Shown piece after piece: positions 1,296 through 56,247 of a stretch of DNA of 64,000 nucleotides. Every line of letters starts with the position of its first letter. The stretch's first letter is position 1. The position numbers were made by a program, and so were the translations under genes. The stretch spans positions 62,001 through 126,000 of the forward strand of contig CADAUA010000009.1 in NCBI GenBank assembly GCA_902791035.1. Direction: 5' to 3'. The notes under the pieces were generated by a model. The model searched no databases. It had not been told where the DNA came from and worked only from the letters and a program-made list of their open reading frames with translations. The stretch is from an uncultured Coriobacteriaceae bacterium. GTDB taxonomy: Bacteria > Actinomycetota > Coriobacteriia > Coriobacteriales > Atopobiaceae.

Positions 1296-2750
1296 CTAGA
1301 ACCAGCGCCGCCACTTGAAGTAGGCCACCTCCGCGGTAACGAGCGCCGCTGCCATGGCTATGAGGGTGAAGTAGCCGAAGGGGTTATGCAGCTCCGGCAT
1401 GTACTCCCAGTTCATGCCATACCAACCCGTGATCAGGGTGAGCGGCATGAAGATGGAGGTGATCACCGTGAGGAGCGAGACCACTGCGTTCTGTCGCACG
1501 TCTATCTGGTCTTGGTAGCTGGAGCGGACCTGCTGGCAGTAGTCCCGCAGGACGCGCGCGTCGTCCGCCAGGCGCCTCAGGCGAGCCACCAGCTGGCGAT
1601 AGAGCTGGCGTGTGCGCTTGGGCATGCCCGTGGCGGGAGCCTCCTGCAGGTCGTCCACCGCCTCGGCCAGCTGGCGGTAGAAGCGCTGCCGCACCGAGAG
1701 GTCACCGCGCACGGAGTTGATGTAGCTCACGAAGCCGCCAGGCAGCTTGCGCATCTCCTCGCCGATGTTCGCCTCCAGCTGGTCCAGGTGGGTCTCCAGC
1801 TGCACGAGCTGCTCGGCGTCGTCGCGCACCAGCACGTCGATGAGCTCGGCCAGGACCGTGGACACGTTCTGCTTTCGCAGCATCTGGCGGTCAAGGTAGC
1901 GGTCCACGAGTGCGGCGCCCTCCTCGGTGCCCACCACGAGCCAGAGGGTGCCCCCGCGGATGAGGAAGGCCAGCTGGATGTCCGCCACACGGCCCCTGTC
2001 GAGCGTGGTGGGGCTCAGCCAGTTGTCGTGCTCCAGCTCCTCGTGGGGTATCTGGATCGAGCCGTAGCTCACGCCCTCGTAGGAGTAGGCCACGCAGTGG
2101 TTGACGTCGGCAGCCACACGCAAGGCGTCGCGTGACACCTGGTCCGTCCCCATACGCTGCTCGAACTCGTCGAGCGAGTAGATGCGCACGTCGGAGGGCT
2201 CGCCATCCGCCGCCTTGCGCACGAAGCCCGTGGCCCGGTCCAGCACCAGGTGGCACACGAGCCCCTCCACTCGGGCACCCACGGGCTCGGCGCTGGCGTC
2301 CTGATGGACGTCCTCCCAAAAGCTCACGTGCTTCTGCATGTGGACAGCGGCGTAGTGGCAGAGCCCCACCACCACGCAGGCCACGCCCGACAGGGTCACC
2401 AGAACCGAGGTCGACCGCAGCGCCATGAGGAAGCACACCGTGGCCACCACGTTGAGTCCCACGAGCACGATGGCCTGGATCTCGCCCGCCACGGACTCGT
2501 CCTCGGCCAGTCGGGCCTTGTCTGCCGCCCGCCGCAGCCATCGCCAGCCGCACGCCACCTCGGCCACGGCCAGCACCAGGGCCAGCACGCAGCAGAAGGC
2601 GGACGCCGCGAGCATGGCACCCTGGACTCCCGAGGCAAGGACCCACAGCAGCAGGACGAAGAGCACGAGCGCGGGGACGCCACACAGCATGAGGAGCACG
2701 CTCGTGACCCGCAGGAACCTGCGCCGGTCCCTCACCAGATGTCTCGACAT
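1296..2750 (-). CDS. CorA-like divalent metal transporter with extra N-terminal membrane domain
   Basis: This 484-residue protein ends with the CorA signature. A hydrophobic helix runs to about residue 440, the motif YGMN follows at about 444-447, then a second helix and a basic tail (KWRRWF). The GMN triplet marks the pore entrance in CorA-type Mg2+/Co2+ channels. The cytoplasmic middle part is helix-rich and ends in a long charged helix, as in the family. It differs from ordinary CorA in having about four hydrophobic segments in residues 10-140 before the soluble domain. The ATG at 2750 follows a strong gcggagggggag ribosome site. It lies 35 bp after murG and may be transcribed with it, but its job is not cell-wall related. 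The substrate is inferred. Confidence 0.85.
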   Translation of the reverse strand: MSRHLVRDRRRFLRVTSVLLMLCGVPALVLFVLLLWVLASGVQGAMLAASAFCCVLALVLAVAEVACGWRWLRRAADKARLAEDESVAGEIQAIVLVGLNVVATVCFLMALRSTSVLVTLSGVACVVVGLCHYAAVHMQKHVSFWEDVHQDASAEPVGARVEGLVCHLVLDRATGFVRKAADGEPSDVRIYSLDEFEQRMGTDQVSRDALRVAADVNHCVAYSYEGVSYGSIQIPHEELEHDNWLSPTTLDRGRVADIQLAFLIRGGTLWLVVGTEEGAALVDRYLDRQMLRKQNVSTVLAELIDVLVRDDAEQLVQLETHLDQLEANIGEEMRKLPGGFVSYINSVRGDLSVRQRFYRQLAEAVDDLQEAPATGMPKRTRQLYRQLVARLRRLADDARVLRDYCQQVRSSYQDQIDVRQNAVVSLLTVITSIFMPLTLITGWYGMNWEYMPELHNPFGYFTLIAMAAALVTAEVAYFKWRRWF

Positions 2751-2785
2751 CGTCTCCCCCTCCGCGCGTCCCAGCGGCCCGGCGC

Positions 2786-3910
2786 CTACTCGGCAGCCAC
2801 CTGCTCCAGGACGTCCGCAAGCTTGGCGGCCGCCTGGTCCTGTCCCAGGTCCTTGGCCGCATCCCGCATGGCCTCGCGCCGCCCTGGGTCGTCCACGAGC
2901 CCCAGGAGGTCATCGGAGAACTCGGGGGTGTCGATCCTGTCGTCGGCAAGAAGGACCGCGGCCCCCGCGTCCACCAGGTAGTTGGCGTTGGTCGTCTGAT
3001 GGTCCGCCGTGGCGAAGGGATAGGGGATCAACATGCTGGGCACGGCGAGTGCCGCGATCTCCGCGATGCTCGAGGCGCCGGCTCGGGAGAGCACCAGGTC
3101 CGCCGCCGCCAGGGCCTCCCCCATGTTCGAGATGTAGGGAAGCACCTGCCAGCGGGTCTTCTCGGCATCCGTGAGCGCGAGCGCGTCTCGCGTGGCCTCG
3201 AAGCCGTCCTTGCCCGTGGAGTGCACGACCACCAGGTCCGGTCGCGAGAGCAGTTCCTGCTTGAGGGCGCAGACCCCCTCGTTTATGTGCTGGGCACCGA
3301 GCGACCCGCCAAACACCAGGAGCATGGTCTGGTCCGCCGCCACGCCAAAGGCCGCGCGGCCCTTCTCGCGCGAGGCCGTGACCACGCTCCGGCGCACGGG
3401 GTTGCCCGTGACGACGATGCGGTCGAGCGAGTCCACACGGTCCCTGAAGGCATCCGTGGCCTGGGGCAGCGCCACGCAGACGCGCTCCGCATGCCGCGCG
3501 GAGGTCTTGTTCGCAAGGCCGGGCACGGAGTTCTGCTCGTGCAGGAGGTAGGGCACGCCCTTGGCCTGGCAGGCTGCCACCAGCGGGAGCTCCACGTAGG
3601 CGCCGAAGCCTATGGCCACATCGGGCGCGCCGGCCTCGGAGAAGTGCCCCTCGATGGCCCGCTTGGCCTTGCTGCGGTTCGCCAGGGCCGAGAGGAGCGT
3701 CCATGGGCGGGACCGGTCGAAGCCGGTAACGTGGATCGGGAAGAAGTCGAAGCCTGCCTGGGGCACGAGCGTGCCCTCGAGCTTGACGGTCTGCCCGTAG
3801 AACTCCACATGATGGCCCCGTTCGCGGAGCTCCTCCGCCAGGGCCAGCGCCGGGTTTATGTGTCCGGCGGTACCGCCCGCCGCTATGGCTACCCTAAGAC
3901 CAGAAGACAC
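2786..3910 (-). CDS. murG: UDP-GlcNAc:undecaprenyl-pyrophosphoryl-MurNAc-pentapeptide N-acetylglucosaminyltransferase
   Basis: MurG adds GlcNAc to lipid I to make lipid II on the inner face of the membrane. The protein has 374 residues, close to the usual size. The N-terminal glycine-rich loop GGTAGHINPALALA (about residues 12-25) and the C-terminal segment SRAGASSIAEIAALAVPSML are typical of the GT28 fold and its UDP-GlcNAc site. The start is a GTG at 3910 with gggggaacc upstream, 15 bp after the ftsW stop. It is the last gene of the dcw run here; murC, which often follows, is absent and a CorA-like gene follows instead. Confidence 0.97.
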   Translation of the reverse strand: MSSGLRVAIAAGGTAGHINPALALAEELRERGHHVEFYGQTVKLEGTLVPQAGFDFFPIHVTGFDRSRPWTLLSALANRSKAKRAIEGHFSEAGAPDVAIGFGAYVELPLVAACQAKGVPYLLHEQNSVPGLANKTSARHAERVCVALPQATDAFRDRVDSLDRIVVTGNPVRRSVVTASREKGRAAFGVAADQTMLLVFGGSLGAQHINEGVCALKQELLSRPDLVVVHSTGKDGFEATRDALALTDAEKTRWQVLPYISNMGEALAAADLVLSRAGASSIAEIAALAVPSMLIPYPFATADHQTTNANYLVDAGAAVLLADDRIDTPEFSDDLLGLVDDPGRREAMRDAAKDLGQDQAAAKLADVLEQVAAE

Positions 3911-3925
3911 CTTGGTTCCCCCATC

Positions 3926-5497
3926 CTATCTGTCGTCCATGCGTCTGTCGGTGGTGCGGGCCGACCGCAGCCGGTCGGACGCGCTCGGTCCCAGGTCTAT
4001 CCGATCGCGTCCCGAGGCGTCGCGCCGCACCCTGCCGCGATGTGCCGAGTCCCGACTCCCGCGGCTGTCCATGCGCGTCGAGAAGGCCCGCCCGCTGTCC
4101 GTGCCGGATCCGCCCTCGTAGACCCTGAAGCCTCGGTCGGCGTCGGCATCCCGGCCGGCCCAAACCCCTGGCCCTTGCTCGTCCCACCCGCGCGCCGAGC
4201 GTGGCGTGGGCTCCCCCACGAAGGAGATCCCCCGGTCCTCGGCCACGTCCCGGAAGCTCTCGCGCCTGTCGTCCGCAGCGGTGCGCGGTAGCTCGGAGTG
4301 GACCGAGACCGAGACGATGAGTCCCACGAGCATGAGGCAGGAGAGGAGGGTGGAGCCGCCGTACGAGACGAAGGGTATGGGCTTGCCCGTGAGGGGCATG
4401 ATGCCTATGACGCCGCACACGTTTACCAGGAGCTGGATCACTATGAGCGAGGTGCAGCCCGCCGCGATGAGCTTGCCGCAGATGTCCGGCGCCGTGCGCG
4501 CGATCCTGAAGCCCGCCCACATGAAGAGGGCGAAGCCGCAGAGCATGCCCACCGTGCCCACCAGCCCCAGCTCCTCGCCCACCACGGCGTAGATGAAGTC
4601 GTTGTAGGCCATGGGGAGGTAGGAGTACTTCTGGCGAGAGGAGCCTATCCCCACCCCGAGGAGGCCGCCCGACCCAAAGGCGTAGAAGCCCTGGATGAGT
4701 TGGTAGCCGTCGCCGTAGGGGTCGGTCCAGGGGTTGAGCATGGTCATCACGCGGGCGCGCGAGTAGTCGTCCTTGAGGGACAGGAAGACGATCCCCAGGA
4801 AGCCCAGCACGAGGGCCCCTCCCAGGACCTTGCGGGGCACGCCCGCCAGGTAGCCCATCACCAGCAGGGTGGCGGCGAGGATGATCGTGGTGCCCTTGTC
4901 GGGCTGCATGAGGATGAGGACGAGGGGGATCCCCAGGGCCACGGCCATGAGCTTCCAGAAGTCCTCGGTGTCCATGCCGGGGTCCTGCACGTAGCGCTGC
5001 ACGATGGCGGCCGCCACCGAGATCACGGAGATCTTGGCGAACTCCGAGGGCTGGAACTGGAAGCCCGCTATGCTCACCCACCGGCTTGCGCCATAGGCGT
5101 CCTGGCCGGCCGTGGGCGAGAAGATCAGCATGAGCAGCAGGATCGTTCCCACCCAGATGACCTTGATCAGCCGCCCCCGCGTGTAGATGCGGTAGTCCAC
5201 GCACGCGAGCGCCGTGGCCGCCACGAGCCCCATGGCAAGGAAGCGCAGCTGGCGCTTGAGGTAGTAGGCGGGGTCGTTGCCCGTGGCCGAGGACGTGAGC
5301 GACGTGATGGAGGACGCCGAGTAGATCATGAGGAGGCCGAAGGCCACGAGCACGCCCACCGAGACGATCAGGATGATCCTGGGCTTCATGAAGACCTCGG
5401 GCACACCAAAGATCGTGCGCGTCCGGGTGTCGCGCCGCGACGTGCGCCTTGAGGCGCCCCGCGGTGATGCCATGGCTGTGGTCCGGGCGTACGGCAT
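3926..5497 (-). CDS. ftsW: peptidoglycan glycosyltransferase FtsW
   Basis: This polytopic SEDS-family protein polymerises lipid II at the septum together with FtsI. The membrane core spans roughly residues 37-400 of 523 and carries SEDS segments such as FQPSEFAKISVI and the late loop PFVSYGGSTLLSCL. Its place between murD and murG, with ftsI in the same run, supports FtsW over RodA. The ATG at 5497 is 3 bp from the murD stop. Unusual features are a 36-residue basic N-terminal leader and a hydrophilic C-terminal tail of about 120 residues rich in Arg, Asp and Ser, which is longer than in most FtsW proteins. The tail is probably cytoplasmic. Confidence 0.95.
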   Translation of the reverse strand: MPYARTTAMASPRGASRRTSRRDTRTRTIFGVPEVFMKPRIILIVSVGVLVAFGLLMIYSASSITSLTSSATGNDPAYYLKRQLRFLAMGLVAATALACVDYRIYTRGRLIKVIWVGTILLLMLIFSPTAGQDAYGASRWVSIAGFQFQPSEFAKISVISVAAAIVQRYVQDPGMDTEDFWKLMAVALGIPLVLILMQPDKGTTIILAATLLVMGYLAGVPRKVLGGALVLGFLGIVFLSLKDDYSRARVMTMLNPWTDPYGDGYQLIQGFYAFGSGGLLGVGIGSSRQKYSYLPMAYNDFIYAVVGEELGLVGTVGMLCGFALFMWAGFRIARTAPDICGKLIAAGCTSLIVIQLLVNVCGVIGIMPLTGKPIPFVSYGGSTLLSCLMLVGLIVSVSVHSELPRTAADDRRESFRDVAEDRGISFVGEPTPRSARGWDEQGPGVWAGRDADADRGFRVYEGGSGTDSGRAFSTRMDSRGSRDSAHRGRVRRDASGRDRIDLGPSASDRLRSARTTDRRMDDR

Positions 5498-53220: not shown

Positions 53221-54441
53221 ATGGCAGGCACCAAATTCACCAAGGCAGAGAAGAGCTGGATCGTCTACGACGTGGGCAACTCCGCGCTCGTGCTCCTTGC
53301 CACCTCCGTCATCCCCATCTACTTCAACAGCCTGGCGGACGGGCCCGCACTGGTGGCCTGGTCCTACGCCGAGACGGTGGCCTCGCTCATCATCGCCCTG
53401 CTCATGCCGGTGCTCGGCTCCATCGCCGACATGCAGGGCATGAAGAAGAAGTTCATCCGCGCGACCGTGGCCTGCGGCGCGGTGGCCACGGTGGCCATGG
53501 GCTTCTTCACCGACCCCACCGCCTTCCTCTTCGTGTACGTGCTCTCGTCCATCATGCTCAACACCTCGATCGTGTTCTACGACGCGCTACTCGTGGACTG
53601 CACCACCGACGAGCGCATGGACGACGTGTCCAGCCAGGGCTACGCCTGGGGCTACATCGGCTCCTGCGTGCCCTTCATCGCCTGCCTGCTCATCGTCCTC
53701 AACGCCAAGAGCCTGGGGATGGACTTGCAGGGTGCCATGAAGATCGCCTTCATCATCACCGCCGCCTGGTGGGTCATCTTTACCGTGCCCATGATGAAGA
53801 ACGTGGAACAGACCCACTACAAGCCGCGCGAGGAGCACGCCGTGGCCAACGCCGTGCGCGGCATCGGCGCTACCCTCAAGAAGATCTGGGCCGACAAGAC
53901 CCTGCGCACGTATATCCTGGCCTACTTCTTCTACATCGACGGCGTCCACACGATCATCAAGCTCGCAACGAGCTACGGCTCCGACCTGGGCATCGAGGGA
54001 ACCCAGCTGGTGCTGGCCCTGCTTGTGACGCAGTTCGTGGCCTTCCCCTCGGCCATCATCTACGGCAAGCTGGGTGGCAAGGTGGGCACCCGCAAGATGA
54101 TCATGGTGGGCATCGTGGGTTACACCTGCATCACCCTCTACGCGGCCTTCCTGCTTCGCACTGCCGTCGACTTCTGGATCCTGGCCATCGCCGTCGGCCT
54201 CTTCCAAGGCGGCATCCAGGCCCTCTCGCGCTCCGAGTTCGGCAAGCTCTGCCCCAAGGAACACGCCAACGAGTACTTCGGATTCTTCGACATCTTTGGC
54301 AAGTACGCCGCCGTGATGGGCACCTTCATCGTGGGCACCATGACCGCAGCCACCGGCAATGGCTCGCTCGGCGTCCTCTCCGTGGTGGTCCTCTTCATCG
54401 TGGGCCTGATCCTCATGAGCAAGGTGCCTGAGCGACAGTAG
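53221..54441 (+). CDS. MFS transporter, UMF1/Atg22-like family
   Basis: A 406-residue protein with about twelve hydrophobic segments. The start AEKSWIVYDVGNSALVLLAT, the loop DALLVDCTTDERMDDVSSQG with YAWGYIGSC after it, and GGIQALSRSEFGKLCPKEHA are characteristic of the UMF1 family (related to yeast Atg22). Some relatives export amino acids from vacuoles; the bacterial substrate is unknown. The ATG at 53221 follows ccaaggagcacat. Confidence 0.92.
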   Translation: MAGTKFTKAEKSWIVYDVGNSALVLLATSVIPIYFNSLADGPALVAWSYAETVASLIIALLMPVLGSIADMQGMKKKFIRATVACGAVATVAMGFFTDPTAFLFVYVLSSIMLNTSIVFYDALLVDCTTDERMDDVSSQGYAWGYIGSCVPFIACLLIVLNAKSLGMDLQGAMKIAFIITAAWWVIFTVPMMKNVEQTHYKPREEHAVANAVRGIGATLKKIWADKTLRTYILAYFFYIDGVHTIIKLATSYGSDLGIEGTQLVLALLVTQFVAFPSAIIYGKLGGKVGTRKMIMVGIVGYTCITLYAAFLLRTAVDFWILAIAVGLFQGGIQALSRSEFGKLCPKEHANEYFGFFDIFGKYAAVMGTFIVGTMTAATGNGSLGVLSVVVLFIVGLILMSKVPERQ

Positions 54442-54469
54442 GCGAAGGCAGGCTTCCTGAACCCTTGCA

Positions 54470-54505
54470 GGGCCGTCCGGCTTGTGGCCGGGCGGCCCTC
54501 ATTTT
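54470..54505 (+). terminator. MFS gene terminator
   Basis: A 12-bp stem with one wobble pair (gggccgtccggc/gccgggcggccc), a 5-nt loop and tcatttt downstream, 28 bp after the stop. Confidence 0.85.
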
Positions 54506-54530
54506 GTGGGTCACTTTGGACGGAACTGGC

Positions 54531-54887
54531 CTCGAGTAGGCAACTCCCGCAAAGCCAGCGACGCTCCGAGCTCATAGTCAGCTCCTCTCTTGACGACTCC
54601 GCGGTCGAGTAGGCAACGGGAACCTCGCGCCATGGCCCGCCAATGCCTGGATGCACCCTCGAGTAGGCATTCCTGAACAGCAAGCCGTGAATGAATGTGC
54701 CAAACATGGCTCGAGTAGGTCATGGGCAGCATGGGACCCCGGCCGCGCAAGCTCCAAGGCACCTACTCGAGGGTCGGCCGCGACACAGCCAAACCGAGAG
54801 TCTCCCAGCAAGTGCCTACTCGATGGCATGACCGTCAGGCTTCGCGCTCTTGGTTAACCACGCAGCAAACTAACCTGCCTACTCGAG
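54531..54887. repeat. array of seven ctcgagtaggca motifs, four direct then three inverted
   Basis: Direct copies lie at 54531, 54604, 54658 and 54710; inverted copies (tgcctactcgag) at 54760, 54813 and 54876. Spacings are 73, 54, 52, 50, 53 and 63 bp. The intervening bases differ from each other. Two copies have a one- or two-base change, and one adds a base. No gene fits this 357-bp span, which lies between the MFS terminator and the argD terminator. I do not recognise the element. Confidence 0.85.
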
Positions 54888-54921: not shown

Positions 54922-54954
54922 ACAAAGGGCCCCGGGGAAGACCCTGGGGCCCTT
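54922..54954 (-). terminator. argD terminator
   Basis: A 12-bp stem with one mismatch (aagggccccagg/ccggggccctt) and a short loop, then ttgttg on the minus strand, 24 bp after the argD stop. Confidence 0.8.
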
Positions 54955-54978: not shown

Positions 54979-56247
54979 CTAGGCTAGCTGCTCGATGATG
55001 CTCGTCAGCCGGTCCGCCATCCGGTCCACCTGCTCGCAGGTGACCACCAGCGGAGGCAGGAAGCGCAGGATGGAGTCGCCGATATGGTTGAGCACGAGTC
55101 CTTCCGCAAGGCCTAGGCTCACTGCCTCGTTCGCGATGGGCACGTCCAGCTGGGCGCCTCGCATGAGGCCGTGACCGCGCACCTCCGTCACGTGGGGCAG
55201 CATTGCCAGACGCTCGGCCAAGCGCTCCCCCACCTCGATCACGTGCTCCTCCATGTGGTCGGCCATGAGCTTCTCCACGGTGGCGCGGCCCGCAGCCGCC
55301 GCCAGGGCGTTCCCGCCAAAGGTGGAACCATGGTCGCCAGGCCGCATGAGGTCCGCGACCTCGAACCGAGCCGCCACCGCCCCCATGGGGAAGCCGTCCG
55401 CGATGCCCTTTGCCATGCTCACCACGTCCGGCTCGATCCCGGCCAGCTGGTAGCTGAAGGGTGCGCCGCAGCGGAAGAAGCCCGTCTGCACCTCGTCGAT
55501 CACGAGCAGGATCCCGCGTTCGTGGCAGGCCGCAGCGAGCCCCTGCAGGAACTCGAAGCTCGCCGGCCACACGCCGCCCTCGCCCTGCACGCACTCCAGC
55601 ATCACGGCACAGACTGGACCCGTGGCCTCGCTGGGATGATCCATGGCTTCCTCGAAGGCCTCGAGGTCGTTGAGTCCCACCGCCTCGAATCCGGCAGGCA
55701 TGGGCAGGAAGCTCTTGTGGAAGGCGTCCTGGCCGGTGGCCGAGAGCGTGGCCAGCGTACGACCGTGGAAGCTCTTCTGTGCCGTAAGGATACCGGTGGC
55801 ACCGCCCAGCTTCTCCTCGCCCCAGCGACGTGCCACCTTGATGGCGCCCTCGTTTGCCTCGGCACCGGAGTTCGCAAAGAAGGTCTTCCAGGTTGTGTCC
55901 GTGGAGCCCGTCACGTGGCCCAGCTCGTCGGTCGTCGTGGACAGCAGCTCCGAGAGGTGGGCCGCCAGCTCGCCGCGGTTCTCCACGTAGTAGTAATTAC
56001 CCACCTGCCAGACCTTGTCGACCTGGGCCTTGAGGGCCTCCGCCACGACAGGGTTGGCATGCCCCAGGCTGGCGCAGCCGATTCCGCCAAGGAAGTCCAG
56101 GTAGACCTTGCCCGTGCTGTCGGTAAGAGTCGCGCCCTCGCCCGTCACGAACTCCACCGGAAGACGTCCGTAGGTATGCATCACATAGGTGTCGTCCAGC
56201 GCCTTGGCCTCGGCGGGGACGGTCGAGAAGCCCTTCTGGTCTGCCAT
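54979..56247 (-). CDS. argD: acetylornithine aminotransferase
   Basis: A class III PLP aminotransferase of 422 residues that converts N-acetylglutamate semialdehyde to N-acetylornithine. It has YLDFLGGIGCASLGHANP, the FFANSGAEANEGAIKVAR loop, LLVIDEVQTGFFRCG (Asp that pairs with PLP), the Lys-bearing PDVVSMAKGIADGFPMGAV and GDHGSTFGGNALAAA. It is last of the arg run; its start is 2 bp after argB. Confidence 0.96.
   Translation of the reverse strand: MADQKGFSTVPAEAKALDDTYVMHTYGRLPVEFVTGEGATLTDSTGKVYLDFLGGIGCASLGHANPVVAEALKAQVDKVWQVGNYYYVENRGELAAHLSELLSTTTDELGHVTGSTDTTWKTFFANSGAEANEGAIKVARRWGEEKLGGATGILTAQKSFHGRTLATLSATGQDAFHKSFLPMPAGFEAVGLNDLEAFEEAMDHPSEATGPVCAVMLECVQGEGGVWPASFEFLQGLAAACHERGILLVIDEVQTGFFRCGAPFSYQLAGIEPDVVSMAKGIADGFPMGAVAARFEVADLMRPGDHGSTFGGNALAAAAGRATVEKLMADHMEEHVIEVGERLAERLAMLPHVTEVRGHGLMRGAQLDVPIANEAVSLGLAEGLVLNHIGDSILRFLPPLVVTCEQVDRMADRLTSIIEQLA

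Follow-up and report, generated by a model that had tools for sequence, protein, structure and literature searches.

What does a run of seven short motif copies, the first four direct and the last three inverted, represent in the gap between two convergent genes? The run lies in a 64,000-nucleotide stretch (the window, C9:62001-126000) of a 2.69-Mb genome of Atopobiaceae type assembled in 37 contigs. Four direct followed by three inverted copies in a span free of genes had been reported in a preliminary description, and both the order and the absence of genes were borne out (Table 1). According to gene calls made with an in-house codon-usage script, the array sits between an MFS-type transporter gene and an argD-like gene, the latter opening an argD-argB-argJ-argC run, and inside the predicted intrinsic terminators of both. 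The count of seven stands for the 9-mer TCGAGTAGG, which is exact in every copy, whereas the full 12-mer is present in only three. Matches to the motif with up to two mismatches number 15 in the window (6.1 expected), a value reached by none of the shuffled sequences, and no sigma-70-like promoter was found within the array span.

Table 1. Features of the window array and positions of related arrays. Plain coordinates refer to the window; the others refer to the contig named.
Feature	Position	Strand	Sequence or remark
MFS-type transporter gene	53221..54441	+	406 aa; annotation by sequence reading
Predicted intrinsic terminator of MFS gene	54469..54499	+	left border of the array
Upstream half-box of copy 1	54518..54524	+	GGACGGA, 1 to 1.5 turns 5' of core; from position-specific counts over 61 exact sites
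Motif copy 1	54531..54542	+	CTCGAGTAGGCA
Motif copy 2	54604..54615	+	GTCGAGTAGGCA; 73 bp (7 turns) from copy 1
Motif copy 3	54658..54669	+	CTCGAGTAGGCA; 54 bp (5 turns) from copy 2
Motif copy 4	54710..54721	+	CTCGAGTAGGTC; 52 bp (5 turns) from copy 3
Motif copy 5	54760..54771	-	CTCGAGTAGGTG; 51 bp, 9-mer start to start (5 turns), across the orientation switch
Motif copy 6	54813..54824	-	ATCGAGTAGGCA; 53 bp (5 turns) from copy 5
Motif copy 7	54876..54887	-	CTCGAGTAGGCA; 63 bp (6 turns) from copy 6
Predicted intrinsic terminator of argD	54926..54945	-	right border of the array
argD-like aminotransferase gene	54979..56247	-	422 aa; named by sequence reading, ArgD segment matched in relatives
Seven arrays of the 9-mer, C9	116.5, 129.3, 140.2, 149.3, 163.8, 167.7, 184.6 kb
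Three arrays of the 9-mer, C13	22.9, 62.6, 66.5 kb
TGTCACG arrays, same genome (L018, L014, L153, L151)	C13:17774-18073, C13:55065-55132, C13:12437-12506, C9:52976-53045
TGTGGGTG array examples, related genus (L210-L215)	G036:C1 95263-95400, 113355-113492, 179904-180060, 199092-199296

Throughout the genome, the exact 9-mer forms ten arrays comprising 61 exact sites, distributed over the contig of the window (C9) and one further contig (C13), and is found elsewhere only as scattered single copies. The preliminary description had overlooked the nine further arrays of the same form, and its concern that the motif might be common genome-wide at random spacing proved unfounded, the copies being clustered in the ten arrays. 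These hold five to eleven copies over 250-650 bp and lie 4 to 40 kb from their neighbours. A plus block precedes a minus block in all ten, with centre spacings between the blocks of 41 to 115 bp, and two arrays carry one or two extra plus copies at their right end. On C9 and C13, contigs with 13% intergenic sequence, 62 of the 64 exact 9-mers are intergenic. The end of C13 very probably joins the end of C9, because the order HisS-AspS-Ppc-FeoB-LigA is conserved in several relatives and because a related genome, Olsenella sp. kh2p3, has a glycosidase gene, an array, and feoAAB side by side. Counting this join, the set spans about 115 kb, or 4.3% of the genome, and none of 200,000 random placements was as tight as the ten-array set.

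The whole-turn spacing of the sites had also escaped the preliminary description. Distances between all pairs of sites within arrays have a best period of 10.50 bp at phase 0.1 (171 pairs, R=0.81), and adjacent-site distances reach R=0.87 (59 distances), whereas the highest value among 2000 jittered sets was 0.38. The spacings amount to 4 to 12 helical turns, and the phase is kept by same-orientation and opposite-orientation neighbours alike. The sites therefore lie on a common face of the helix, as in phased protein-binding arrays, their distances being multiples of 10.50 bp. Phasing also holds for distances other than the two common spacings (R=0.82, n=16, p about 2e-5, a p-value that, like the others, takes distances as independent), and copying of one unit length is therefore not the explanation. 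Position-specific counts over the 61 exact sites revealed a second box in the flanks, with C at -11 in 79% of sites, GG preceding it and G/A-rich bases following, as well as a pyrimidine at +9 in every site. The extended site, GGACGGAn5CCTCGAGTAGGYM, is thus about 24 bp long, asymmetric and two-part. Such a site suggests that each protein reads DNA with two of its parts, purely by analogy with the phage repressor of PMC9283540.

The plus and minus copies had alternatively been proposed to pair as the arms of a transcribed structured RNA. The minus strand of the window array does fold slightly better than shuffled sequences (z=-2.25), but the plus strand reaches only z=-1.39, no Rfam family matched the window array at the family cut-off, no promoter was found, and terminators stand on both sides. 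In addition, phasing at the B-DNA repeat points to a protein on DNA and has no rationale in RNA, and the centre spacings vary widely. This proposal consequently fared poorly, and we regard a structured RNA as very improbable.

The other proposal, that a DNA-binding protein lands on the array, is well supported by the 10.5-bp phasing, the two-part 24-bp site, the persistence of the motif, and the inward polarity repeated ten times. We therefore consider it very likely that the arrays are docking platforms for a putative DNA-binding protein. Each array would be bound by a sequence-specific protein that reads the ~24-bp two-part site, and copies placed at whole helical turns would align the bound molecules on one DNA face over 250-650 bp. 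Because the first half of an array points right and the second half left, anything entering the array would meet the same polarity from either flank. We infer that neighbouring sites, and perhaps separate arrays, are linked by oligomerisation of the protein, and that the ten platforms, which would mark a ~115-kb segment of core chromosome in mid-replichore, serve to organise or delimit this segment, either as a local macrodomain or as a two-sided insulator element. Observed features on which this model builds are the sites, their phasing, polarity, confinement and intergenic location, and the persistence of the motif during spacer divergence. Given docking, the layout makes an architectural role slightly favoured at best, and to docking, oligomerisation, and the organising or bounding of the segment taken as a whole we give an even chance. 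The protein would probably be lineage specific and oligomerising, and the arrays would probably serve either to organise the chromosome locally or as a two-sided boundary element.

Confinement, together with the presence of arrays in all types of gap (convergent, divergent, and co-directional), points to such an organising or bounding role. Two arrays lie in convergent gaps, and local promoter control therefore cannot be the general rule. The neighbours of the arrays are core genes without a common theme, among them ppc, ligA, gltBD, htrA, ferritin, feoAAB, and argD, and further flanking genes encode a DUF559 protein, a CAAX protease, a hemerythrin-PAS protein, ABC transporters, and two GH3 glycosidases. 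Arrays in divergent gaps and 5' of feoA and the ferritin gene could nevertheless act on promoters, as operators of one transcription factor whose targets (among others feoAAB, ferritin, hemerythrin-PAS, ABC transporters, and the two GH3 glycosidases) happen to cluster. Helical phasing is common among cooperative regulators and would suit such operators, and the array upstream of feo is also found in kh2p3. We hold this explanation to be unlikely: it is weakened by the convergent-gap arrays, the one in the window lying between two terminators without a promoter-like site, by the lack of a common function among ppc, DUF559, CAAX protease, htrA, gltBD, and argD, and by the unusual restriction of a regulon to 4.3% of the chromosome. 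Proteins of the region that might be the binder (TetR, AraC, RpiR-NUDIX, and OmpR-type) were ordinary, and none was preferred.

Arrays of the motif were detected in 2 of 140 genomes of the family and 2 of 249 genomes of the order, overlapping sets in which the same two genomes are the carriers. Only the present genome has the full set; the other carrier, kh2p3 (G050, L056), has a single array, located between a GH3 glycosidase gene and feoA-feoA-feoB. The neighbours of this array match the genes flanking the C13-C9 join on both sides, and a relative thus keeps an array together with its flanking genes, the absence of which had been a concern of the preliminary description. The kh2p3 piece was probably acquired from this lineage, because the FeoA beside its array is 92% identical to that of the present genome, against 57% for the second kh2p3 FeoA, like its neighbours. 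Genes of the two genomes are 84-86% identical, and the array spacers have diverged past alignment while motif copies are still present. Phasing of the kh2p3 array is moderate (R=0.64, six gaps). A triple-motif scan of the genome collection returned at least 114 stretches; among the matches listed, most had conserved flanks and many had CRISPR-typical periods, a dozen had less similar flanks, four of these being viral contigs with regular coding-like spacing, and only kh2p3 stood out. In the same scan, none of 16 stretches in viral contigs was a comparable array. De novo array searches over 80-200 kb from six relatives revealed nothing comparable apart from the TGTGGGTG arrays of one genus.

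Spacers of different arrays are unrelated, with the exception of one duplicated pair, the C13 arrays at 62.6 and 66.5 kb, which have a common centre. The array at 184.6 kb contains units resembling one another. Some arrays have thus grown by local duplication, and part of the pattern may be copying. The arrays might accordingly be viewed as an interspersed repeat without host function, either STAR- or BOX-like or consisting of relics of a non-autonomous mobile element, spread and reshaped by recombination, in which the direct-to-inverted form would be the leftover of two element ends. Other direct-to-inverted motifs in this genome (TGTCACG and AAACGTGC) and genome-wide in a related genus (TGTGGGTG) fit this explanation, as do the two common-centre arrays flanking a TetR-GH3 glycosidase pair (C13:62583-66839), the transfer of one array with feoAAB and the glycosidase gene into kh2p3, and the position of several arrays between genes that do not adjoin each other in relatives. 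Tn7- and Mu-type transposons likewise carry several direct protein-binding sites at each end, with the two ends inverted. However, unlike such ends, the arrays have unrelated spacers and no termini, core, or cargo in common, and neither a terminal sequence nor a body shared between copies, as in a transposon end pair or a MITE, was found. Passive spread would also not be expected to give exact phasing, and the link to breakpoints is ambiguous: in a hand count, about 1 of 9 array junctions was adjacent in some relative, versus about 14 of 41 other gaps. We consider a functionless repeat improbable. The idea that arrays delimit inserted gene modules was appealing with two relatives but not clear-cut with six. 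None of the relatives compared has the TetR-GH3 glycosidase pair between ppc and feo. A gene of 719 aa, weakly similar to the MXAN_6230/SCO0854 family, likewise lies between two arrays.

The direct-then-inverted architecture is wider than this motif. In the present genome, 22-bp tandem units starting with TGTCACG are in some cases followed by inverted units, and the 15-bp remainder is nearly identical across distant arrays; AAACGTGC arrays have a similar form. At C9:16657-16813 (L149), four GCACGTTTG units in one direction precede two inverted ones in a convergent gene gap, and at C9:180847-180936 (L013 1848-1937) an inverted pair of TGTCACAAA...GTGACA palindromes lies between an AraC-family gene and feoB. 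Two genomes of a related genus (G036 and G005, about 99% identical over most compared stretches) carry several dozen TGTGGGTG arrays genome-wide, direct then inverted, with a period of 20-22 bp. These consist of TGTGGGTGC units, a core of ~60 bp, similar in those read, and inverted units. In one case (L226, G005:C50:8000-15000, positions 2618-4394), the arms of the element are 1.7 kb apart, with an apparent insertion in the core. A third genome of that genus, G069, is without these arrays. Upstream of feoA in other genera, arrays of the unrelated motifs GTGTACC, GGGTGTGT, and CCTCGGACAyATA were seen (L163 897-1257, L173, and L164 1110-1200). Another genome harbours four copies of a near-identical AGTTGTGA element of ~100 bp in both orientations (G041:C1 523313, 529075, 539187, and 601550; L216-L220).

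Among region-specific site systems, ParB, MatP, Noc, and SlmA are either associated with ori or ter or keep clear of ter. ParB/parS resembles the arrays in that clustered sites nucleate a nucleoprotein complex, but the array motif, taken in full, is no palindrome. The regional confinement recalls matS or Ter layouts, and the arrays could in principle be an ori, ter, or partition site set, that is, a parS, Ter, or matS analogue. Canonical parS sites (TGTTTCACGTGAAACA), which typically mark the vicinity of ori, are located elsewhere, three of them on C2 (C2:83 kb) and none in the arrays, and where relatives have single-contig genomes the block is found mid-arm, at neither ori nor ter. C9 and C13 contain no dif match, and their GC skew, read together with gene strand, has no clear ori- or ter-like switch. 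Such a role is thus very doubtful. The arrays are not CRISPRs either, as already stated in the preliminary description. CRISPRs have near-identical repeats in a single orientation, unique spacers, and cas genes, whereas the arrays have a 9-bp core, an inverted half, and variable spacing, and no cas gene was present among the annotated array neighbours.

The closest known kinds are STAR elements in form, phage stoperators as asymmetric two-part sites, and matS as regional sites, and each of these has a defining feature that the arrays lack. In Staphylococcus aureus, STAR elements are described as direct repeats with the consensus T(G/A/T)TGTTG(G/T)GGCCC(C/A) and a start signature, dispersed genome-wide, with spacers that recur within a locus; the text of PMC3532100 contains neither 'inverted' nor 'helical'. 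The arrays likewise consist of a short GC-rich motif of variable copy number and unknown function in intergenic DNA, with locus-specific spacers of roughly 40 bp (~40-44 bp). In contrast, their motif is TCGAGTAGGY, the second half is inverted, the set keeps to a single region, and neighbouring sites are whole turns apart. In the genomes of cluster A mycobacteriophages, stoperators are solitary 13-bp sites that follow the direction of transcription and are read by a protein with two DNA-binding domains (PMC9283540). They share with the arrays many asymmetric sites in short intergenic spaces whose orientation matters, whereas here ~24-bp sites are arrayed in mirrored halves, both orientations per array, among core genes of the chromosome. 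MatP has 23 matS sites of 13 bp, spread across 800 kb of the terminus region (PMC3330122); like the array motif, they recur tens of times within a single chromosomal segment only. Unlike matS, the motif described here is asymmetric and its sites form phased arrays over 115 kb, mid-replichore in relatives. A literature search returned no report of the motif as a described element, the matches to the 9-mer appearing unrelated as judged by title.

That the arrays represent a dedicated regional chromosome-organising or boundary system of a Coriobacterial lineage, served by a putative undescribed DNA-binding protein, is a tentative proposal, less likely than not. It would consist of ten mirrored, phased platforms marking a core segment that is neither ori nor ter, in a layout analogous to convergent CTCF sites, with motifs turning over between genera. 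If an organising or bounding role is right, the arrays would be the trace, readable in the sequence, of a protein that organises one chromosome segment away from ori and ter or fences it off. They would be ready bait for this protein, and the 10.5-bp rule is testable by half-turn insertions. Even for a functionless repeat family, the exact phasing would still have to be accounted for, and current models of intergenic repeats offer no account of it.
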